A stretch of DNA of 64,000 bases, taken from NCBI GenBank assembly GCA_016871755.1, contig VHCJ01000001.1, positions 62,001 through 126,000 on the forward strand, read 5' to 3'. The first letter of the stretch is position 1. Each line of letters begins with the position of its first letter. Below the pieces are notes generated by a model, which saw only the letters and a program-made list of their open reading frames with translations, made no database searches and was not told where the DNA came from. The stretch is from Verrucomicrobiota bacterium (GTDB taxonomy: Bacteria > Verrucomicrobiota > Verrucomicrobiia > Opitutales > Opitutaceae). Below, piece after piece: positions 13,082-24,792 of the stretch. A program made the translations under genes and the position numbers.

Positions 13082-15148
13082 TTATTCCGACGCCGAAGGT
13101 GCCCGCGCGCCGGACGCGCGGGCGGAGGGCGGAGGGGTTACTGTGGGGGGAAAGTACTTCGTGAGGAAGCGCTCCACGGCGCCGTAGTAGCCGAACGCCG
13201 TTTCCTCCTTCTCGAAGCCGTGACCCTCAGCGTCCTCGATGAGCGAGGCGTATTCCTTGCCGTGTTTCTTGAGCTCGCGTTCCAGGACCTCCCAGTGCTC
13301 GAACTCCACGCGGGGATCGTTGCGACCGTACGCGTGCATCGTGGGAATCCGGATGCTGGCCACGTGTTCGACCGGCGAACGTGCCGCCAGCACGGCGGGG
13401 TCGTTGCCCACCGCCCGTTGCAGCCAGGCACCGGCGACGCTGTTCCCGATCAGGTCGTAACGCGTGATCAGGCGCAGGTCGGAGACGCCGACGTAGTTGA
13501 CAGCCACACGGTAGAGTTCCGGGGTGAAGGTGGCTCCAGCCAGCGCGGCGTAACCGCCATAGCTGGCGCCGACGATCCCCACCGTATCGGCCGAGGTATG
13601 TCCTGCGGCGATCGCCCACTTGACCGAGTCGGTGAGGTCATCCTGCATCTTCGCCCCCCACTCGCCGAATCCGGAGCGCTCGAAGTCCCAGCCGTAACCC
13701 CCGGACCCGCGGAAATTCGGCTGCAGCACGGCGTAACCGCGACTGGCGAAGAACTGGACCTCCGGATTGAAACCCCACGTGTCACGGATTCCGAAGGGAC
13801 CGCCGTGGGGCATCACGAGGAGCGGCACCCGCTCCTTCTCGCGTCCGAGCGGCTTGGTCAGGTAGCCGTGGATCTTGAGGCCATCCCGCGCCGTGTAGAC
13901 GATCGGCATCATCGACGACATCTGCTCCGGCTTGATCGCCGGCCGCGCCGCGGTCACCGCCTGCAGGCGCAGGCCCGCCGCGCTCATCTCGACCAAATAG
14001 TACTGTCCCGGATCCCGGTCGGAGAAGGCCCGGATGATGAAGCGCTTCTCATCGTCCGCCATCGAGGTCACGAGCAGCAGATGGCGCGGGAACTGGCCTT
14101 GGATTGAGTTCATGATCGCGGCCCACTGCGGATCGATCCAGTGCGTGCGCAGCAGCACGTCCTCGTAAACGACGCCGAGCAGGCGGTCGCGCTTCGGCGA
14201 CATCAAGGCCCGGCGGATCATGCCGGCGGGCGGGCTGAAGACGTCGGCGGTGAATTCGCCCTTGGTCACGTCGAAGGCCCGCAGAACGCCGCGGTCCTCG
14301 GTCGTCTGGTCGATGATGTACGCGGTGTTGCCGGAGTCGAGGAGCCCGGCGATTTCCCAGCGTTCCTCAGCGGCGGGGAAGGACTTGACCGTGCGCCACG
14401 GCTGATCGTTGCGCTGACGGATGCGGAACAGCCGCGTCGCTCCCTCCAGTTCGGTGGTCATCCGCTGCACGGCGTTGCGGTCGAAGAAGCCCGCGCTGAC
14501 GCCGCGGTCGAGACCGACGACCGGAGAGCGGCGGCCGGTCTTGACGTTGACGCGATAGATGCTCGGGGTGGGGTTGCGCGGAGCGCTCGGGTTGATGCGG
14601 CGCGCATCGCTCTCCTCGGTGAAGCCGGAGATAAGAATGTGATCATCGCTCGCGGGGAAGCGGTCGACGAGGTTGCCGAAGAACAGCGAGAAATCGTCCT
14701 TCGTGCGGCGCGGCTCGAGGATGCGCTTCAGACCGCGCCCCTGCAGGTCGACGGACGCGAGCAACGGCACCTCATGGCCGGCGATGGCGGACGTGAAGAG
14801 CAGGCGATCCGAGCCCTTCCAGAACACGCCGCGGATGTTCTCGTCCTTGAAGTGAACCGGGACGGTGACGTTGCCCGTCGCGAGGTCCTTCACCGCGATG
14901 CTGTAGCGGCCCTGATTCGGCGCGATCATCGCGACCTTGGTGCCGTCGGGTGAGATGACGACGGTCTCGATCGACTGCTGGTCGAAGAAGATGTTCATCG
15001 GCAGCAGTTCGCGGGCGCGAACCTCGACCTCGGGGAGAGGCACGCGCGTCTCGGCGGTGGCGGGGAGGACGCTGAGCGCTGACGCCGCCGCGGCGAGGAG
15101 CCAACGGTGGGCGGACGAAGCGCTGGCGCGGGGATGGAAGAGCTTCAT
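13082..15148 (-). CDS. S9 family (prolyl oligopeptidase/acylaminoacyl-peptidase type) serine peptidase
   Basis: 688 residues from the ATG at 15148, which opens a Sec signal peptide (about residues 10-33, ending ATAETR), so the enzyme is periplasmic or surface-exposed. An N-terminal beta-propeller-like region occupies about 35-400 and a C-terminal alpha/beta hydrolase (Peptidase_S9) the rest. The triad is visible: Ser529 in GASYGG, Asp611 in YGRNDPRV and His643 in EGHGF. HGGPFGIRDTW provides the oxyanion region. Family members release di- or oligopeptides or remove acylated residues. A TonB-dependent receptor gene ends 118 bases upstream on the same strand with a terminator between, and a paralogous peptidase/receptor pair occurs at 34.4-39.3 kb. 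Confidence 0.93.
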   Translation of the reverse strand: MKLFHPRASASSAHRWLLAAAASALSVLPATAETRVPLPEVEVRARELLPMNIFFDQQSIETVVISPDGTKVAMIAPNQGRYSIAVKDLATGNVTVPVHFKDENIRGVFWKGSDRLLFTSAIAGHEVPLLASVDLQGRGLKRILEPRRTKDDFSLFFGNLVDRFPASDDHILISGFTEESDARRINPSAPRNPTPSIYRVNVKTGRRSPVVGLDRGVSAGFFDRNAVQRMTTELEGATRLFRIRQRNDQPWRTVKSFPAAEERWEIAGLLDSGNTAYIIDQTTEDRGVLRAFDVTKGEFTADVFSPPAGMIRRALMSPKRDRLLGVVYEDVLLRTHWIDPQWAAIMNSIQGQFPRHLLLVTSMADDEKRFIIRAFSDRDPGQYYLVEMSAAGLRLQAVTAARPAIKPEQMSSMMPIVYTARDGLKIHGYLTKPLGREKERVPLLVMPHGGPFGIRDTWGFNPEVQFFASRGYAVLQPNFRGSGGYGWDFERSGFGEWGAKMQDDLTDSVKWAIAAGHTSADTVGIVGASYGGYAALAGATFTPELYRVAVNYVGVSDLRLITRYDLIGNSVAGAWLQRAVGNDPAVLAARSPVEHVASIRIPTMHAYGRNDPRVEFEHWEVLERELKKHGKEYASLIEDAEGHGFEKEETAFGYYGAVERFLTKYFPPTVTPPPSARASGARAPSASE

Positions 15149-15186
15149 GCCCCAACGGTGCGAAGTGGACGCGATTTTGCAGCACG

Positions 15187-15219
15187 AAAAAGGCCGGGGC
15201 CCGAAGGCCCCGGCCAAAA
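15187..15219 (-). terminator. Terminator between receptor and S9 peptidase genes
   Basis: A perfect 10-bp stem GGCCGGGGCC / GGCCCCGGCC with a 4-base loop (15192-15215) is flanked by A-runs on both sides. For leftward transcription it is followed by TTTTT, so it is a canonical intrinsic terminator for the receptor gene that ends at 15267. The peptidase gene downstream would then need its own promoter, read-through or attenuation. Confidence 0.85.
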
Positions 15220-15266
15220 CCGGATCGGACCGGTCGCCGAGGCGACCGGAGGACGATCACGCTGCC

Positions 15267-18029
15267 TTAGAACTTGTAGCGCGCATCCACGAAGAAGAAG
15301 CGGCCAACCGGGTCGTAGGCGTTGATGTCGCGGCTCTGATTGCCTTCAGAGGCGATGAACGGCGGATCGACGTTGAAGACGTTGTTCGCGCCAAGGTTCA
15401 CGGACAGGCCATCCAGCCAGCGGTTCTTGGAACCGGAGAAGCTATAACCCGCCTGGAGGTCGACGGTGCGGTAAGCCTTGACGGACGGCTCATTCGGGGT
15501 GGCAACGTCGGTGACGCTCGGGATCGCGACCAGATTCACACCGGCGTTCCAGCTCTTGTAGCGCCAGCTGACCTGCGCGTAGGCGCGCCAGCGGGCATAG
15601 AGGCTGGAGCCGGAGTAGGAATCGGCGTAGTCAAACGGAGCCTGCGTCGGGAGACTCTGAATATTGTAGTCATTCAGGTACACCGCCGAGACGCGTCCCG
15701 TGAGGACGCCCCAGGACTGCGTGTCGTGGGTGTAGGAGACCTTGACGTCGGCACCGGACTGCCAGACACCGGCGATGTTCACCAACTGGTTGGTGATCCA
15801 CACGGAGTCGGACGGACGGCTGGACAGCTGGCCGGGGCTCGTGACCGGAGCGCCCGTGCCGAAGTAGGTTTCGCCCGCGGCGCTCTCGCCGAAACGGACC
15901 AGCGGGGCGTAGGGGGAGGCCGGACCGAACTGCTCGACCGAGCTCACGATGAGCGAGGACGAGATGCTCGAAATGAGGTCACGCTCATCGATGTTGAACC
16001 AGTCGATCGAGACCTCGAGGCCCTTCAGCTTCTTCATCGGCGACCAGACGACACCAGCGGTCCAGTTACGCGACTGCGACGGATTCAGCTTCGGGTTCGA
16101 ACCGGAGGACGAACGGTACTGGCGGGAGCCCGTGGTGGTGCCCAGCGCCTGACCGGTCGTGCTGTAGCGGAAGATATTGACGCCGGCCGTGAAGCCCTGC
16201 GAAACCGGACCCGTGAGGTCGAACAGCGTCGGGGCGCTGAAGGACTCCGAGTAGGTGCCGCGGACGGCGAATTCGTCGTTGAAGGGCAGCCAGCGGAGGC
16301 TGTACTTCGGCACGAACGGGTCGGACGTCAGGCTGTAGAGCTCTTTGCGCGCGGCGATCGAGAGATCGAGCACGTTGAAGCCCGGGCGGGAGTTGGCCTT
16401 GTCGAAGATCGGAACGCGCACCTCGGCGAAGAAGCCGTCGGTGTTCGAGTTCGCGGAGTAGGGCTGACGCGGGGTGGCCTGGAGCCAGCCACCACTCCGG
16501 TCGTAGCGGTCGTTGGTGAAGGACAGCGACTCGCGGCGGGTGTCGGCACCGAGGGCCGCGGAAACCGGACCGCCGGGGATGTCGAAGAGCTCGCCGGTGA
16601 CGCGGGCGTCGAAGCCGATGAGTTCGCTCTCATAGTCGCGGAAGCTGGTGCCGATGAAGCCGGCGACGACGCCAGGCGCCTGATTGCGCGCGAACGGATT
16701 GTAGGTTCCGTTGTTCACGGCAGCGGTGTAGGCGGCCGCGTCGATCAGGTTATCGTTGCGGAAGTTGCTCACCGTGCGGTTGAAGTTGGACGCCACCTCG
16801 TAGTTCCAGGTGCCGACCAGCGGACCCTTGAAGCCGACCACGCCACGGGTCGCGACCGTCTCGTTCTTGTAGATACGCGGATTGGTGACGAAGCGATTGC
16901 GGGCGGTGACGGTGACGTTGAACGGATTGGAGGGCGTGGCACCCGTGACGTTGCCCGCGACGGGCTGGGCGTTCAGCACGGACTCCGAGCCGGTCGCCGA
17001 GTAGATGAAGTCGGCGAAGAGCGTCGTCTTTTCGGTGAGGCGGTGGTCGATCGCGGCGACCACGCTGCGGCGCTGGGCCTTGATCAGCATCGTCGGGTAG
17101 GACGCGAGATCGAAGAACTGCTGCGCACCCGTCTGGTCGAGCGGACCGCGGTAAATGCCCTGCGCCACCGCCTGTTCCGGCGTGAGGTCGAGGTTCAGCG
17201 GCGGAGCGTTCAGGCTCGGGTTCAGGTAGTACCACACGGTCCCGATGTTCACGACACCGGCGTAGGTCGGCGTGCGGAAGATCCCACGGGCCCACGGACG
17301 CTCATTTTGGATGAGCGGATCGCTCTTCTTCCACTCGGTGGAGATGGTGATCTGGGTCTTGTCCGTACCGGCGCCGAACACACCAAAGTAGCTGCGCTCC
17401 CGGTAGTTGCCGTCATTCGGGCTGAAGCCGTAACGGCCGCCGACCTCGGCGCCGCGGTAGTTCGTCTTCAGGATGACGTTGACCACGCCCGACACGGCGT
17501 CAGAGCCGTACGTCGCGGACGCGCCGTCCGAAAGGATCTCGAGGCGTTCGACCGCGGAGATTGGGATCAGGCTGACGTCGACGAAGTTCGCGCCGCCGCT
17601 CGCCGTCACCGGCGAGACCGCCGCACGGCGGCCGTTGATCAGCACGAGGGTCGCGCGGTTGCGCAGCGAGACCGCCGAGCCACCGTTCGACGAACCGGAG
17701 GAGATGTTGCCGTTGTCGGAGCCAATGTTGTTCGCGCCGTAGAAGAAGGGCTCGGTCTTCTTGAGGACCTGGAGGAGGTCGTTGGAAACGCCGGAGTTCT
17801 TGATGTCGACCGACGTGATGACCGACACCGGGATCGCCGGGGTGTCGGCCGCCATCGGGATCAGCGAACCCGTGACGACGAACTTTTCGAGTTGAACCTC
17901 CTCGTCTTCCTTCTTGGGAGACGAGTTGGCCGGGGCGGTTTGCGCGTAGGCGCTCAGCGAGCTCAATACTCCCAGACCCAATGCGAGGGTAAAGGAGGAC
18001 CGAGCCTTCGTACGGAGACGAGGGATCAT
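15267..18029 (-). CDS. TonB-dependent outer-membrane receptor
   Basis: 920 residues from the ATG at 18029; an in-frame ATG at 18062 adds 11 residues without improving the signal peptide. The signal peptide is RTKARSSFTLALGLGVLSSL ending SAYAQ. A TonB-box-like EKFVVTGSLIP leads into the plug domain (SNGGSAVSLRNRATLVLING, EILSDGASATYGSDAVSGVV). The barrel ends GRFFFVDARYKF with the terminal Phe. The extracellular strands are rich in Asn, Ser and Tyr. The downstream neighbour is the S9 peptidase at 13082, and the same gene pairing recurs at 34.4-39.3 kb. The substrate is unknown; peptides or siderophores are plausible. A palindrome lies about 90 bases upstream of the start. Confidence 0.93.
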   Translation of the reverse strand: MIPRLRTKARSSFTLALGLGVLSSLSAYAQTAPANSSPKKEDEEVQLEKFVVTGSLIPMAADTPAIPVSVITSVDIKNSGVSNDLLQVLKKTEPFFYGANNIGSDNGNISSGSSNGGSAVSLRNRATLVLINGRRAAVSPVTASGGANFVDVSLIPISAVERLEILSDGASATYGSDAVSGVVNVILKTNYRGAEVGGRYGFSPNDGNYRERSYFGVFGAGTDKTQITISTEWKKSDPLIQNERPWARGIFRTPTYAGVVNIGTVWYYLNPSLNAPPLNLDLTPEQAVAQGIYRGPLDQTGAQQFFDLASYPTMLIKAQRRSVVAAIDHRLTEKTTLFADFIYSATGSESVLNAQPVAGNVTGATPSNPFNVTVTARNRFVTNPRIYKNETVATRGVVGFKGPLVGTWNYEVASNFNRTVSNFRNDNLIDAAAYTAAVNNGTYNPFARNQAPGVVAGFIGTSFRDYESELIGFDARVTGELFDIPGGPVSAALGADTRRESLSFTNDRYDRSGGWLQATPRQPYSANSNTDGFFAEVRVPIFDKANSRPGFNVLDLSIAARKELYSLTSDPFVPKYSLRWLPFNDEFAVRGTYSESFSAPTLFDLTGPVSQGFTAGVNIFRYSTTGQALGTTTGSRQYRSSSGSNPKLNPSQSRNWTAGVVWSPMKKLKGLEVSIDWFNIDERDLISSISSSLIVSSVEQFGPASPYAPLVRFGESAAGETYFGTGAPVTSPGQLSSRPSDSVWITNQLVNIAGVWQSGADVKVSYTHDTQSWGVLTGRVSAVYLNDYNIQSLPTQAPFDYADSYSGSSLYARWRAYAQVSWRYKSWNAGVNLVAIPSVTDVATPNEPSVKAYRTVDLQAGYSFSGSKNRWLDGLSVNLGANNVFNVDPPFIASEGNQSRDINAYDPVGRFFFVDARYKF

Positions 18030-18115
18030 GGTGGTGTGGTTATGGTTGAGTGTGACTATCATGGAGCCACTTGGGCACTCCGCACACTAATTGAACGATA
18101 GTAACCCAAACGCCT

Positions 18116-18129
18116 CTGTCATGTGACAG
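18116..18129. promoter_or_regulatory. Palindrome CTGTCATGTGACAG upstream of the receptor
   Basis: A perfect dyad with 6-bp arms (CTGTCA/TGACAG) about a 2-base centre, in the AT-richer segment between the receptor start (18029) and the end of the next leftward gene (18173). Its size and position suit an operator for the receptor promoter. No binding protein can be assigned. Confidence 0.4.
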
Positions 18130-18172
18130 CGAGCGATTTTCCACGTTTTCGTGAAATTATCGCCGGCTTTTG

Positions 18173-19696
18173 CTAGGGATTAGCTTTAGGGAAGCCGAGG
18201 TACTGGTCCACAATCCACTTGGTCTTCTCCAAAGTGTCAGCGTGCGGCGGCGCGTTCCACGCAAAGAAGGTCTCGTACGCGAAGGACGGCAAGAGAAAGG
18301 TCAGCGCGACACTCAGGAGAAGGACCCGGCCCAAGCGGCTCGGAATCGCGGACAGTAGCGTGGCGAGGGCAAAGGGCATCAGGAGCAGCACGGGGATCGT
18401 CGTCTTTAGCCCCCAGGGGTTGAGGTGCCCGAGATACACCAAACTCATCGCGACCAAGACCACGAGGAAGGACATCGCCGCCCACCAGGTCAGGCGTCCA
18501 CACCACGCGAGGCCGACCAGCACGACCGCGATGAAGACGTATTCGCGTCCGGCCGAAATCGCCCAGTAGGCAGCGTTGTTGTTAACTGTCAGGATGTTCT
18601 GGAATCCATCCTGCAGCGTCTTGCCGGCAAAGAAGGCCACCGCCTGAAATCCCAACACGGCGGCCAAGCCCAGTTGCAGGGCAAAGGCGAGGCCTTCCTT
18701 CCGGAACCATGCCCACCGGAATCGCTCCTGGAACTGCAAGACTCCGAACAACGCGATGGCGCCGAGACCAAAGAGCGCAAAGGGGAGACCGCCCATCAGG
18801 AAACCCACCAGCAACGGCCACGGGGCCCGGTCCACCGTCCGCACAAAGGGGAGAAACAGGGCCAAGCCCACCGCTCCCGCCGCGAGTTGCGACGGCGCCC
18901 AATTCCACATGCTCACCGTGTTTTGAACTTGGAAGGGGAAGAACGCGTAGAACACGCCGTCGTAGTGCGGTCCCAAGGGCGGGATCTCTCCGCGCCGGTA
19001 CGACTCAAGGAAGAACTCGCCGCCACCCCAGGTTGGCACGAGCAGGAGGGCCAGACTCGCCGCTCGCTCCGAGAGGGGTCGCGGTTCTCCGCGCCACAGC
19101 TGGGGAACCGCACCGAGCACGAGCACCATCGCCCACAGGAGGAGGACGAGGCTGCTGACGCTGAGCAGCCCGGCAAGCACCCGCGCGGTCGCATCCGGCG
19201 AGTAGTTCGGCCGGAACCAGTGGAGCGGAGTCGCCGCGATCATCGGCGGGAGGTAGGGAAGGTAGTAGTAATTAAGCCGATACTGCATCGGAATCGGCGC
19301 ATCCGGCTCCCGGTCATCAAAGAGAAATCCCGACGCCCGCGGGGCCACCGGGTCCTGGTAGAGGGAGAGCAGCACCGACCGGTGCTTCGCCCAGTCCCCA
19401 AGGAAGGAGTCACCGTGGTAGAGCTTCGAATGCGACAGGACGAGGAAGACCACCAAGGTCAGGACCGCCCAGCCGTTGACCGTGACCGGTGAAAAAAGCC
19501 CCGCCTCCCGCATCCGCGGAACGCGTCGCAGTGCCACCCACGTGCCCGCGATGAGGGCAATCATCCCGCCCGCTTTCCAAGCGACGCCGAGGGTCAGCGT
19601 CATCATGTAGAGCGCAACCAGCGCCGCCACCGTCCACACCAAGCCTCGATACAGGCGCAGCAGGGTCTCCGACCCCAACTCCAGCCGGAAGCTCAT
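18173..19696 (-). CDS. Polytopic membrane protein, glycosyltransferase-like (GT-C style)
   Basis: 507 residues from ATG 19696. This start overlaps the stop of the upstream methyltransferase frame in an ATGA and is preceded by the purine-rich GAGAAGAA. About ten or more hydrophobic helices span the protein. A long periplasmic loop after the third helix carries acidic and aromatic residues (LYHGDSFLGDWAKHR, then FDDREPDAPIPMQYRLNYYY). Many helices plus an early loop with Asp/Glu is the pattern of GT-C glycosyltransferases and polysaccharide membrane enzymes, but no signature motif proves activity. It is the last gene of a leftward operon with the methyltransferase and the sialidase-like/GDSL protein. 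Its codon use looks less GC-extreme than its neighbours. Confidence 0.7.
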   Translation of the reverse strand: MSFRLELGSETLLRLYRGLVWTVAALVALYMMTLTLGVAWKAGGMIALIAGTWVALRRVPRMREAGLFSPVTVNGWAVLTLVVFLVLSHSKLYHGDSFLGDWAKHRSVLLSLYQDPVAPRASGFLFDDREPDAPIPMQYRLNYYYLPYLPPMIAATPLHWFRPNYSPDATARVLAGLLSVSSLVLLLWAMVLVLGAVPQLWRGEPRPLSERAASLALLLVPTWGGGEFFLESYRRGEIPPLGPHYDGVFYAFFPFQVQNTVSMWNWAPSQLAAGAVGLALFLPFVRTVDRAPWPLLVGFLMGGLPFALFGLGAIALFGVLQFQERFRWAWFRKEGLAFALQLGLAAVLGFQAVAFFAGKTLQDGFQNILTVNNNAAYWAISAGREYVFIAVVLVGLAWCGRLTWWAAMSFLVVLVAMSLVYLGHLNPWGLKTTIPVLLLMPFALATLLSAIPSRLGRVLLLSVALTFLLPSFAYETFFAWNAPPHADTLEKTKWIVDQYLGFPKANP

Positions 19697-20499
19697 TTCT
19701 TCTCGAAGACGCCGACGATCCACGCGCCACCGACCCGGAACCCGCCTCGGAGGCGGCGGAACGCGGCGAAGAGCCTGGCCAGGTCACGCCCCGTCTTGAA
19801 GCGATCGGGATGTGAATCGATGTCCGCCGCCGAGCGTCAGCTGAGGAGTTTCTTCAGCCAGGGGTTCCAGATCGGATGCCAGGGACACCGCACCGCCACG
19901 ATCGCCCGACCGCCGGGACGCAGCACGCGGTGGGCCTCCGCCACCAGGGCTTCCTCCTCCACGCAGTGCTCCAGAAGATCGATCATCAGCACGCAATCCA
20001 GCGAGCCGTCTGCGTACTCCAGTCGGCTGGCATTGCCCAGCTTCACCGAGGCTGGATCCAACCCAGCCGCGCTCAGATACTCGCGACCTTTGCGCACGAG
20101 CTCAGGATTAAGGTCCACTCCTTCGATGCGATAACCCAAGCGCCCGAGATGGAGCAGGAGCGGCCCGGAATTGCACCCGATGTCCAAGAGGGTGTCCCGT
20201 CCGGGAAACACGCCCGACCGACGCAACATACCTTCCAGGGCTCGCTTGCGGAGGCGGTGCCAAACCCGTTCGGAGAGGGTTCCCGCCCTCTCAGCTTGGA
20301 CCAGATCGTACGTCAAGGTCAGCTCAGACTTTCCATGCAGGGGAGGGATAGGCGCTCCGGATTCAGCCTTGTGAACCGTCCCCTCAGACTCCGACGGGGA
20401 GTGTGGGAGAATGGCCGAGTCAATCGCGGAGATGGGCTGCATCGGAGACACGTCCCTCTCATATCGTCCTGATCCGCTGGAACCTGAACCGGCATTCAT
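19693..20499 (-). pseudogene. Class I SAM-dependent methyltransferase interrupted by an in-frame TGA
   Basis: The methyltransferase fold is clear: motif I LLDIGCNSGPLLLHLGRLGY, GVDLNPELVRKG, then DCVLMIDLLEH and EAHRVLRPGGRAIVAV. Translation from ATG 20499 (alternative ATG 20442) stops at TGA 19837-19839 after WNPWLKKLLS, giving about 220 residues. The same frame continues for 47 sensible codons past it (DSHPDRFKTGRDLARLFAAF ... WIVGVFEKK) and ends at TGA 19693-19695, exactly overlapping the ATG of the next gene. That coupling suggests the ancestral protein was about 268 residues and that the internal TGA is a nonsense mutation, a sequencing error or read-through. The truncated product keeps the SAM site but lacks the C-terminal lid. 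Confidence 0.75.
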
Positions 20500-20503
20500 T
20501 CGG

Positions 20504-22438
20504 TCAATACCCGAGTTCCAGCGCCGCCCGCACCACGGGTGCGAGCCGCCCCGCCAGCCGCCCTTGGCCAGCCGGGTTGGGATGGCATTGGTCCGTCGTC
20601 CATGCCCCGATCTGCTCTCCACTCGCCTCCGCCGCGCTCCAGTCCGCGAAGTGATCCACAAGCCACACGCCACGCTCCACCGCAACCTCACGGCAGCGCT
20701 CCACAAAGGGCTCCAACCGGACGTTGGGGTGCTCCCCCAACCCGTTCCGCTTCGCCTCCCTCCCCCACCGCGGCGCCGTCATGAGCACGGGGACGACCCC
20801 CGCCGCCCGGAGACGGTCAACGAGCTGGAGCAGGTTCTCCCGGTAGGCCTCCCCCGTGATCCGCGAGGCCGTCTTGCCCGGATCGACATAGCTGTCGTTC
20901 GTCCCGTACATGATCGTCACGAGGTGAGGACGGTGCGCCAGAACGTCCCGCTCCAGCCGGAGGAGCGCCTGATCCGTCCGCTCGCCGCCAATGCCGACGT
21001 TGCGGACCGTGACGTCCACGCCGCCGCGCCGGAGTGACCGCTCCAATCGCGCCGCAAAGGTTTCCTCCGCCGTCACCCCGGGTCGCACCGCCTTCGTGAT
21101 CGAATCCCCCAGCGTCACCACGCGCAGCGGCTCCGCTGACCGGGGGGCGCAGTCCGGGCGCGACCATCGAATCCGCGCCACGAAGGTGGACCCGTCCGCG
21201 CCGCGGGTCCGCGAGTCCTTCATGAAAAGCCCCTCCGAAACCGTCACCCACGCTTCCGACTCCGTCACGGCATTCGCCCCGAAGTTGCCGAGCTCCGCGC
21301 CGCGCTCCGGCACGACGACGCGCTCGCTCGCCCTCACCACCCGCAGGGCCACCGGATCAACCCGAGCCATGAACAGGGGAGCCCGGTGCCGCATGATATG
21401 ATCGTTGGCCGCTCCCCGCCGCGTGTACACGAGGTACAGGCCTTCCCGGTGCGTGATCCAGTGAGCCTGCGTGTTGTAACTCCCCAACTCCTCCCCGTCG
21501 TCGAACCGCCACGGCTGCGGCTCGGCGAACACCAGTCCGTCGTCCCCCGAGGTCACGTACGCGCGAAGGTCGTTGCGCAGGGTCAGGAAGTACTTGCCTC
21601 CGAACTGCGCGAGTGAGGGTTCGTGGAGACCGCGCTTAATCGTAAGGCGCAGGAGGGGGCCGACCCTCACGACACGCAGGGTCGTACCGTCGAAGCGGCA
21701 CTCCGCGACGGCCACGCTGAAGGGCTCGGTCGCGTTCCGGCCGACGTACAGCGGCACGAGGAGCGTACCGTCCGGCCGCGCCAACCACTGCGAGCAGGCG
21801 CTGCGGGCAAAGTTGAAGTGCTCGTCGGGCGGCATCTCCAGCACGCGCCAAGGCGTCCAGGCCCCGGAGCCGGGATCCATCACGGCATACACGGTCTGGT
21901 GCGCCCGCGGCACATCCTCCAGTTGCGCACCCTTGGGACTGTAACGAACTTGGGCCCCGAGCGCGATCACCCGCCCCGTCGCCGCGTGCCACCCGGGTGT
22001 CACGTCGGCCACGCTCAGCGTCACGCCGTCGGGCTGCTGCCGCCATGACAGTGCCGGGGGGCCGACCGGACCCACCCAGTCGCCCTGCAGCACGGGTCGG
22101 GTGAGAACATGGAGGCCGGAATAGTAATCCGACACCCGCAGGTGCTGCTGAAGGGTCATCACCATCGACGGCGCCCTGGAGTCCTCGCCAGGCACCGCGA
22201 CCGCCCGTGGATGGTACCAGAGGAATTGGCCGTCGTCGTGCCGCAAGGCGGTATCCAGCGCGACGCTGAAATCGAGCGGCGCGGCGGCGGGGGCGGCTGC
22301 GGTTGCAGGGGCGGGAGCAGGAGCGGAGGCGGAGGCAGGAGCGGGGGCGGGTTCCGTTGTCGCCGCGCCAAGCGCCGACCACGCAGCGCCCGCGACGAGG
22401 CCGACCACGCGGAGATCAGGAAGACGAAGGAAGGACAT
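20504..22438 (-). CDS. Exported sialidase-like and SGNH/GDSL esterase two-domain protein
   Basis: 644 residues from ATG 22438, with a signal peptide (VVGLVAGAAWSALGAATTE) and an Ala/Pro-rich linker (about residues 30-55). An N-terminal region (60-425) shows sialidase/BNR-like propeller features ([46 protein letters not shown]). A C-terminal SGNH hydrolase domain (about 435-644) has block I GDSI (Ser446), GIGGERT, YGTND and DQCHPN (Asp616, His619). SGNH enzymes deacetylate or de-esterify glycans, so together the domains suggest processing of an acylated surface or dietary polysaccharide. Its stop lies 4 bases before the methyltransferase ATG, so the three genes to 18173 form one operon. Confidence 0.85.
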   Translation of the reverse strand: MSFLRLPDLRVVGLVAGAAWSALGAATTEPAPAPASASAPAPAPATAAAPAAAPLDFSVALDTALRHDDGQFLWYHPRAVAVPGEDSRAPSMVMTLQQHLRVSDYYSGLHVLTRPVLQGDWVGPVGPPALSWRQQPDGVTLSVADVTPGWHAATGRVIALGAQVRYSPKGAQLEDVPRAHQTVYAVMDPGSGAWTPWRVLEMPPDEHFNFARSACSQWLARPDGTLLVPLYVGRNATEPFSVAVAECRFDGTTLRVVRVGPLLRLTIKRGLHEPSLAQFGGKYFLTLRNDLRAYVTSGDDGLVFAEPQPWRFDDGEELGSYNTQAHWITHREGLYLVYTRRGAANDHIMRHRAPLFMARVDPVALRVVRASERVVVPERGAELGNFGANAVTESEAWVTVSEGLFMKDSRTRGADGSTFVARIRWSRPDCAPRSAEPLRVVTLGDSITKAVRPGVTAEETFAARLERSLRRGGVDVTVRNVGIGGERTDQALLRLERDVLAHRPHLVTIMYGTNDSYVDPGKTASRITGEAYRENLLQLVDRLRAAGVVPVLMTAPRWGREAKRNGLGEHPNVRLEPFVERCREVAVERGVWLVDHFADWSAAEASGEQIGAWTTDQCHPNPAGQGRLAGRLAPVVRAALELGY

Positions 22439-22827
22439 CGGGGAAAAGCACGGGGCGGCGAGGCCTTCGCACCCGGCTCCCAAGGCCGGGCGCGGACCCC
22501 ACCCACGCTCCCAGTGTGCATCGCGACCCGATGAAGGCGATGCGATTGTCCCTTGCCGCGTCCAAGGGTCTCCCGCCGATCGCAGGCGTCCCGCAGAACC
22601 GGATCGGGCCACGCGCGTCGCTCCGTCCGTGCCTCCCGCCCGCCGCCGTCCCCGGGAGCACACCACCGCAGCGCCCGGGACGAGGAGGCCGTCGCCAATT
22701 CGCCGCCGATCCCCCGCCGGACGCGGCGGCTCACGATTCGTCGGGACGCAGGCCGACGGGCGATTCACGTTTGCGTCGCATCCCACGTAGCCGCTGACTC
22801 TCCATCAACCCGCCCCCCCAAAAATCC
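22439..22827. other. Divergent intergenic region, no gene seen
   Basis: The 389 bases between the outward-facing sialidase/GDSL gene and the unknown gene at 22828 have only GC-rich shadow frames. Both promoters should lie here, but I could not identify convincing elements. Confidence 0.5.
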
Positions 22828-23583
22828 ATGCCCCGCATCTATCGTGAGACCTTCGACCACGGCCCCGGTGGCTGGTGGGGATTTGCCGGCAATCACCTCG
22901 GCTTGCAGCCCCTCGCCTGGCGCCGGGGCACGGTGACCACGCGCAGCCCGTGGTGGATCGACTACAACCACGCGCCGCCCGGCGCGGGCTACCTGCACAT
23001 GCTGGCCTGCCTCAACGTGCGCGGGCCGTTCTCGGACCACCACCGCGAGGTCGCGGGCCGCAACACCTTCGCCGAGGACGCCTACCCGCTGGACTTCCAA
23101 GACGCGTGCCTGCGCGTCCGGGTCCGCGGCGAGGTTCGGCTCCGCGGCGCCCAACTCGTGCTGCTCGTCCAGGGTCGGCAGGGCGCACTCATTTCTGGCT
23201 GGCTGCTCACCGGGCAACCGCTGGCCGTCACGCCGCGTTGGTCGGAGCAGGACATCACCCTCACCCCGGATCCGGCGCAGTGGACCTGCCTCGGGTCCCG
23301 GCATGATCGCGCCGACTACTACGGCCGCCTCCCGCTCGCCACGATCCTGCGCGACGTGAACGTGAACCTCATGTTCGTGCTCTTCCCCCTGACGGTGACG
23401 CCGATGGGCCCGCTCCGCGGCGATCCGCACCGGCTGCGCGCCGGCCGGGACTATCCCGTGTGGACCTCGGACCTGCCGGAGGGCTACGTGGAATTCGACA
23501 CGGTCGAGATCGCCTTCCGCGGCGACGACCCTCCCCCGGCGCGGGCTGGCCGGACCCGGCGCCGCGCCGACGGCCGGGCCTGA
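22828..23583 (+). CDS. Unknown protein, possibly carbohydrate-binding beta-sandwich
   Basis: 251 residues with no signal peptide or membrane segment. It opens with RETFDHGPGGWWGFAGNHLG, an arrangement seen at the start of lectin-like or LamG-style jelly-roll domains that describe a damaged or bound segment of a glycan. Later come alternating hydrophobic strands (ACLRVRVRGEV, AQLVLLVQGR) and many Trp/Tyr. The last 20 residues are Arg/Pro-rich and look disordered. I do not recognise a named family, and carbohydrate binding is inference from composition and from the glycan-type neighbour. A truncated recombinase begins within about 10-30 bases of its stop, so the gene may have been affected at its 3' end. 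Confidence 0.6.
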   Translation: MPRIYRETFDHGPGGWWGFAGNHLGLQPLAWRRGTVTTRSPWWIDYNHAPPGAGYLHMLACLNVRGPFSDHHREVAGRNTFAEDAYPLDFQDACLRVRVRGEVRLRGAQLVLLVQGRQGALISGWLLTGQPLAVTPRWSEQDITLTPDPAQWTCLGSRHDRADYYGRLPLATILRDVNVNLMFVLFPLTVTPMGPLRGDPHRLRAGRDYPVWTSDLPEGYVEFDTVEIAFRGDDPPPARAGRTRRRADGRA

Positions 23584-23591
23584 GGCTCCGC

Positions 23592-24053
23592 GCCACAGCC
23601 GCGCCGCATTTGCTCCGCACTGACACCCTCGCCCTCGCCGAAGAACTGGAGCGTTGTAACGCGAATCTGGCCAGCCTGTCGGAGAACCTGGACACCTCCT
23701 CGGCCATGGGCCGCATGTTCTTCAAGCTCATGAGCGTTCTTGCCGAGTTCGAGCGGGACCAACTCAGCGAACGCACCACGAACGCCATGACCCACCTGCG
23801 GAAGCACAACCGCCGGATTTCGAGCCGCATCCCGTTCGGCTACACCCTATCCGCAGACGGCGAGACCCTCCTCCCGGTCGCCAGCGAGCAGGCTGCCATC
23901 CAGACCATGGCGACGCGTCGAAACGCCGGCATGACCCTCGGGGGCATCGCTCGCAGCATGGAAGCCGCCGGCGTGGCTACCAAGCAGGGCGGGAAGTGGA
24001 CGCCCAAAACAATCTTGGCCATCCTCCGTCGGCAGGAGAAGCTGGCGGCATGA
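23592..24053 (+). pseudogene. Serine recombinase lacking its catalytic N-terminus
   Basis: The frame encodes the distal part of a resolvase/invertase catalytic domain (DTLALAEELERC ... SENLDTSSAMGRMFFKLMSV, LAEFERDQLSERT) and a Recombinase-type linker and DNA-binding region (GFTL-like YTLSADGETLLPVASEQAAI, ending PKTILAILRRQEKLAA). The first roughly 70 residues, with the active-site serine and the YxR motif, are absent, and homology fades out at about 23592-23610. It therefore cannot catalyse recombination. It was probably left behind by an integrated element. Its stop overlaps the next gene's ATG. Confidence 0.8.
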
Positions 24054-24250
24054 AGCGCAAGAAGCCCAAGAAGCTGCCGTCGGTCAGCAAGTCCGAGGTG
24101 AAACGCCTGCCCAAGACAGAAGCCGTGCTGCTGAGGCTGACGAAGGACGACAAGGCCTCCATCGTCGCAGCGGCGAGCAAGCTGCACCTGACCGTCACAG
24201 AGTTTCTGACGAAGGCTGGCTTGATGGTGGCAGAGAAGGTCCGGAAGTAG
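24050..24250 (+). CDS. Small ribbon-helix-helix-like protein, mobile-element partner
   Basis: 66 residues from the ATG at 24050, which overlaps the recombinase stop as ATGA; AGGAG lies about 11 bases upstream. A very basic N-terminus (KRKKPKKLPSVSKSEVKR) precedes EAVLLRLTKDDKASIVAAAS, then LHLTVTEFLTKAGL. That strand-helix-helix pattern is typical of CopG/MobC/DUF1778 ribbon-helix-helix proteins that bind DNA as dimers, as relaxosome accessory proteins, antitoxins or element repressors. No toxin gene follows. It belongs with the recombinase remnant. Confidence 0.6.
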   Translation: MKRKKPKKLPSVSKSEVKRLPKTEAVLLRLTKDDKASIVAAASKLHLTVTEFLTKAGLMVAEKVRK

Positions 24251-24670
24251 GTCCTAGGGGAAGTCGGTACCCTCAAAAACCCGACGGCATATAGGAGAGT
24301 AGGGCTGTGGGAGAACAGGTAGCTTCCAAGCTACTTTCTTTAACCTGCTTCGCAGGCCGCGCCGGCGTGTCTTCTGACTAGAAAAAGTCGTTTTGAAGAA
24401 AGTCCTGACCCGTTGCGTCCACCCAACCGGGAACCCAGAGCACCGGGATGGCGTACATATGACCGCAACCCGTCAGCGCAGTGATTGGCGGGCCTGCTGA
24501 GGTTCGACCGTCCTCCCTCAGACTAGCAGGCAAGTTTGGGCCGAAGCGGATACGAGTGCGTCTCAGTGGTAGCAGTGGCGCTTCCGCTTGCTCGCTTTGG
24601 ACATCCCTGCACTTTGAGGGAGCTGTGTGCAAAAGTGTTAGCAAAACGCCCTTCGGCTTGGTCGCTGACC
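24251..24670. other. Gene-free end of the recombinase patch
   Basis: This stretch is less GC-rich than the flanks and codes for nothing I can support. A frame at 24378-24644 (-) of 88 residues has no recognisable features. A frame at 24481-24756 (+) ends inside tRNA-Glu and is a shadow. Short inverted repeats such as GTAGCTTCCAAGCTAC near 24322 have no obvious role. It is probably residual mobile-element DNA. Confidence 0.45.
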
Positions 24671-24708
24671 AAAAAGAAGCGCCGCATCTCTCTCGAAATG
24701 CGGCGCTT
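24671..24708 (-). terminator. Intrinsic terminator of the tRNA-Glu transcript
   Basis: An 11-bp stem (AAGCGCCGCAT / ATGCGGCGCTT, 24677-24687 with 24698-24708) has a 10-base loop and, for leftward transcription, is followed by CTTTTT. It lies 7 bases past the encoded CCA of tRNA-Glu. Confidence 0.85.
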
Positions 24709-24715
24709 GCTAAAG

Positions 24716-24792
24716 TGGCGTCCCCACGGGGATTCGAACCCCGGTTCTTACCGTGAAAGGGTAGTGTCCTAACCGGGCTAGACGATGGGGAC
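24716..24792 (-). tRNA. tRNA-Glu (anticodon TTC)
   Basis: Cloverleaf on the minus strand. Acceptor GTCCCCA/TGGGGAC with discriminator G and encoded CCA (24716-24718); D-arm with GGTTAGGAC; anticodon loop CTTTCAC giving TTC; T-loop GGTTCGAATCC. It is followed by an intrinsic terminator. The DNA beyond its 3' end contains the recombinase remnant. Confidence 0.95.

Follow-up and report, generated by a model that had tools for sequence, protein, structure and literature searches.

An in-frame TGA upstream of a conserved ATGA overlap in an Opitutaceae methyltransferase gene: probably a recent nonsense mutation

The class I SAM methyltransferase gene analyzed herein is interrupted by an in-frame TGA at positions 19837-19839 (minus strand), and with a probability of roughly two in three this codon represents a very recent nonsense mutation of a conserved Gly codon. 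The premature stop is most likely not a new mechanism. The window, that is, the whole stretch of 64,000 nucleotides under analysis, corresponds to positions 62001-126000 of contig C1 in its own genome (G000), which comprises 3.67 Mb and is given as 97.41% complete.

Translation of the interval from 20499 to 19693 (minus strand) revealed one internal stop, 47 further sense codons (19696-19836) and a natural terminal TGA (19693-19695) that overlaps the next start codon as ATGA (19696-19693), which confirmed the arrangement reported in the preliminary description. The gene beginning at this overlap (18173-19696, minus strand) appears in the ORF list with an intact frame and encodes a membrane protein of 507 aa, for which no match was found in Pfam (E up to 0.1) or NCBIfam (E up to 0.01). 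On the other side, the ORF list places a GDSL-type esterase frame at 20504-22786 (minus strand), the listed start being putative. No promoter-like or terminator-like sites were found within 18100-22900.

Close orthologues of the methyltransferase were detected in two of the nine other genomes of the genus (G005 and G003) by searching the frame against 57 genomes and the alignment against the 10 genus genomes at E up to 1e-30, with the window's own genome included in each set; these collections, in which the species is represented by one genome, may omit records near that of the window. The orthologue contigs, both from Opitutaceae MAGs, are JAIXWY010000003.1 (isolate D4_MAG_00034, with "pond" in the title) and CAIOYO010000164.1 (isolate Loclat_bin-15473). 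The next-best match in the 57-genome search was far weaker (E 2.3e-14, 36% identity), and a class-wide search of 384 genomes (E up to 1e-16), for which at most seven first-look candidates were scored among the matches listed, gave one non-own genome among them, covering model positions 48-187 of 242. Neither viral contigs nor plasmids yielded relatives. Within the window's own genome, the best two of 10 other matches, by E-value order, were only 30% and 37% identical, and thus no close spare copy of the methyltransferase was seen.

Both orthologues align through the stop site ungapped and with the reading frame open, the corresponding codon encoding Gly in each case (GGT in G005 and GGG in G003). 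As counted from the alignment, the tail beyond this site is identical to that of the window in 44 of 47 residues in G005 and 43 of 47 in G003, and the ATGA overlap with the next gene is also present in both. The presence of the tail and the same overlap in these intact frames bore out the ancestral length that had been proposed, and supported the view of a single nonsense codon within an otherwise conserved frame; neither orthologue ended naturally at the premature stop with a following stretch devoid of homology. In G005, the orthologue of the downstream membrane protein is 74% identical and free of stops. A GDSL-type gene lies immediately upstream in both relatives (in G003 by DNA alignment only), where an orthologue of the C-terminal part of the esterase adjoins the methyltransferase in G005 and, again by DNA alignment, in G003.

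The preliminary description had taken the ATG at 20499 as the start codon, which became doubtful upon comparison with the relatives, as the stretch 20499-20452 was not kept in frame: G005 carries a TGA within its counterpart, and G003 lacks that ATG. A GTGTCT sequence is common to the window, G005 and G003 at the position of the GTG at 20451 in the window, and because only the frame from this shared sequence is open in all three genomes, the conserved start is probably this GTG rather than the ATG. The truncated frame would then span 204 codons (19840-20451, minus strand) and yield a product of 204 aa, compared with 252 aa for the full frame; the orthologue in G005 measures 247 residues. The stop flagged in G005 was considered as a shared stop and rejected, since it sits upstream of the conserved GTG and not at the codon of interest.

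As for the encoded domain, a Pfam search with the translated stretch 19840-20499 identified Methyltransf_11 (PF08241) at residues 105-200 of that frame (E 5.5e-20; 72.2 bits versus a cut-off of 21.2 bits), the match stopping short of the premature stop. For the 47-codon tail alone, Pfam gave no match (E up to 0.1), and no NCBIfam family exceeded its cut-off for the methyltransferase among the 25 of 34 matches listed. In the class I fold, the final helix and strands round out the sheet. Two low-confidence structure predictions were obtained (mean pLDDT 41.1 and 43.6), and the latter model put one helix and the two final strands in the tail.

The constraint that has acted on the tail was assessed by Nei-Gojobori counts, with synonymous change near saturation so that the ratios are rough. 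Against G005, the 31 tail differences comprised 27.5 synonymous and 3.5 nonsynonymous ones on 38 and 103 sites, respectively (dN 0.035; dS 2.5, near saturation; ratio 0.014), and the core showed 73.5 and 15.5 differences (ratio 0.038); against G003, the ratios were 0.064 for the tail and 0.062 for the core. A neutrality test on the 31 tail differences, which covers both lineages, gave P 2e-13 for three or fewer nonsynonymous changes and P 4e-12 for four or fewer. These codon counts indicated strong purifying selection on the tail, which is not a chance open frame. Given such strong constraint, the stop would have to be of very recent origin, an error or a codon that is read through. Given two to three nonsynonymous tail changes, the neutral share of the window's own branch was at most about 5-19%, a bound resting on an assumed branch dS of 1.2-0.4.

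Relaxed constraint after the stop was not observed in either tail comparison. The lack of a nonsynonymous excess in the tail, which would be expected also if the full-length protein were still made, counted against loss of function; relaxation would be expected only for an old event. In the core, changes unique to the window numbered 10 nonsynonymous and 27 synonymous, as compared with 3 and 29 unique to G005 (Fisher P 0.07), which gave a weak hint, not significant, of relaxation. Within the 17 codons preceding the stop (19840-19890, minus strand), a stretch identical in both orthologues, three window-only changes (P>R, H>N and I>L, at 0-based columns 187, 195 and 201) were noticed post hoc as a cluster, and perhaps reflect early relaxation.

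The premature stop stands isolated on its contig. A comparison of the open frames of G005 along contig C12 (700 kb) with contig C1 of G000 (268,477 bases) gave 62 matches, comprising 51 in the sense frame as judged by third-position bias, 10 shadow matches and one ambiguous match, the latter 11 of which were dropped. An internal stop was present in only one of the 51 sense-frame orthologues (22,856 codons), namely the methyltransferase; the set consists of frames open in G005 and covers one contig of G000. Nine of the 62 matches had been flagged in all, and the eight others were rejected as broken genes, seven of them being antisense shadow frames, with most mismatches at codon position 1, and one being ambiguous. 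One match flagged for lying in two frames belongs to the shadow frames. Antisense shadow frames, which made up 10 of the 62 matches to G005, can mimic broken genes. In the window itself, an open frame of 1054 aa (14937-18101, plus strand) lies opposite the gene for a TonB-dependent receptor (15267-18062, minus strand).

The same comparison revealed that the window and contig C12 of G005 are collinear in inverted orientation, 7.6-23.5 kb of the window corresponding to 111.7-98.6 kb and 24.7-55.8 kb to 48.4-6.2 kb. The intervening ~50 kb of G005 (48.4-98.6 kb) thus corresponds to a gap of only ~1.2 kb in the window (23525-24792). Since a tRNA-Glu gene (24719-24792 of the window) is located at the edge of this gap, a mobile island at the tRNA, either gained in G005 or lost in the genome of the window, is possible.

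Of the three explanations that the preliminary description had offered for the stop, two were retained, namely recent nonsense mutation and a base error, and programmed read-through found no positive support. A wrong base in the assembly, or a minority allele turned consensus, with the gene intact in the living cells, is the less probable of the two retained explanations and still carries some weight, considering that the tail and overlap have been preserved as they would be in a functional gene, that the stop is the sole such event among the 51 orthologues and that the genome was assembled in 144 contigs. On the other hand, TGA differs from both GGT and GGG at two of three bases, and a single erroneous base would thus require another background codon such as GGA, which is used at 202 of 1,945 glycine positions across the aligned orthologues. 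The three window-only nonsynonymous substitutions shortly ahead of the stop, albeit a post hoc cluster, would also speak against an error. The TGA is probably real in the living population. That the truncated product retains enzyme activity or has acquired another function is, in turn, highly improbable: the Pfam methyltransferase match does end 5' of the stop, but the tail hardly varies among the relatives and, judging from the class I fold and the low-confidence model, would hold the sheet-completing helix and strands.

Read-through of the UGA, either programmed or leaky, would give rise to two proteins, one short and one long, and tune the downstream gene, and would account for the continued constraint on the tail. 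The premature stop is moreover a UGA followed by C, a context in which termination is weak in E. coli. Work on mammalian sites terms UGA_C weaker (PMC9841425). Nevertheless, this explanation appeared unlikely. The codon is Gly in both orthologues, the stop being conserved in neither of the two relatives, and the C after the UGA sits in an Arg codon (CGC) in all three genomes; because this codon is common to them, the C predates the stop, and no selection need be invoked for the weak context, which was inherited. UGA is also the usual stop, being used by 40 of the 51 orthologues, 11 of these 40 with UGAC as well. A suppressor tRNA was not apparent, as the anticodon UCA occurred in none of the 45 tRNA matches read by ARAGORN in this nearly complete genome. 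RNA folding in the region that surrounds and follows the stop (19760-19850, minus strand) was not unusual (z 0.26; 111 of 200 shuffles equal or better), and the sole Rfam match within 18000-21500 at E up to 1 lay elsewhere on the opposite strand and below the gathering score. Selenocysteine insertion, considered in view of the top NCBIfam match, a methyltransferase selenoprotein family (53 bits versus a cut-off of 460), was rejected: the best SelB match scored 168.8 bits and fell short of its cut-off (242.25), and the single tRNA-Sec match over the cut-off (47.1 versus 47 bits) was a tRNA-Ser with anticodon UGA. Because the loosely limited searches for tRNA-Sec and SelB matched all 14 control genomes, of which 5 and 2, respectively, exceeded the cut-offs, only matches over the cut-off were used. 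Low basal read-through at the UGA is possible. A species-specific leaky UGAC that yields the methyltransferase in two lengths and uses the ribosome supply to the ATGA as a dial for the membrane-protein gene is very improbable.

On the favored interpretation as a recent nonsense mutation, the change of the conserved glycine codon to TGA in a methyltransferase gene overlapping its neighbor would shorten the product from 252 to 204 residues with loss of the end of the fold, and the truncated methyltransferase would probably be inactive, insofar as the low-confidence models locate the lost elements correctly. Ribosomes would now terminate 141 nt short of the ATGA overlap, and because they would halt at that distance, reinitiation at the membrane-protein gene would probably be reduced by a polar effect, by analogy with coupled gene pairs. 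If the base is real, the locus provides a natural counterpart of a designed coupling test, in which a stop precedes an ATGA overlap, and shows a gene caught as decay just begins. The general weight of a single stop in a single gene is small. Our literature search found no paper on nonsense mutations in metagenome-assembled genomes.

The locus can be compared with three known systems. As a member of the class I SAM methyltransferases (PF08241), the window gene resembles the family in its domain match far over the cut-off, and differs in that its last 47 codons are cut off by the stop. With regard to coupled ATGA pairs, the 4-nt stop/start overlap is kept in all three genomes, as in a coupled pair, and the stop lies upstream of it as in designed variants (PMC6728339), the likeness here being one of sequence alone. 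In the portion of that study on E. coli, stops introduced upstream of overlapping starts brought translation of the downstream gene to extremely low or undetectable levels in three of five pairs, with nearly 40% left in one of the remaining two and the other uncoupled, and its abstract gives a figure of "13 of 14 cases" for two organisms (PMC6728339). Finally, the gene is like a bacterial pseudogene with a single nonsense codon in that the orthologues of sister species are intact and one internal stop interrupts a frame that is otherwise kept; unlike such a pseudogene, its tail shows no decay, and because of this the event would be either very young or not real.
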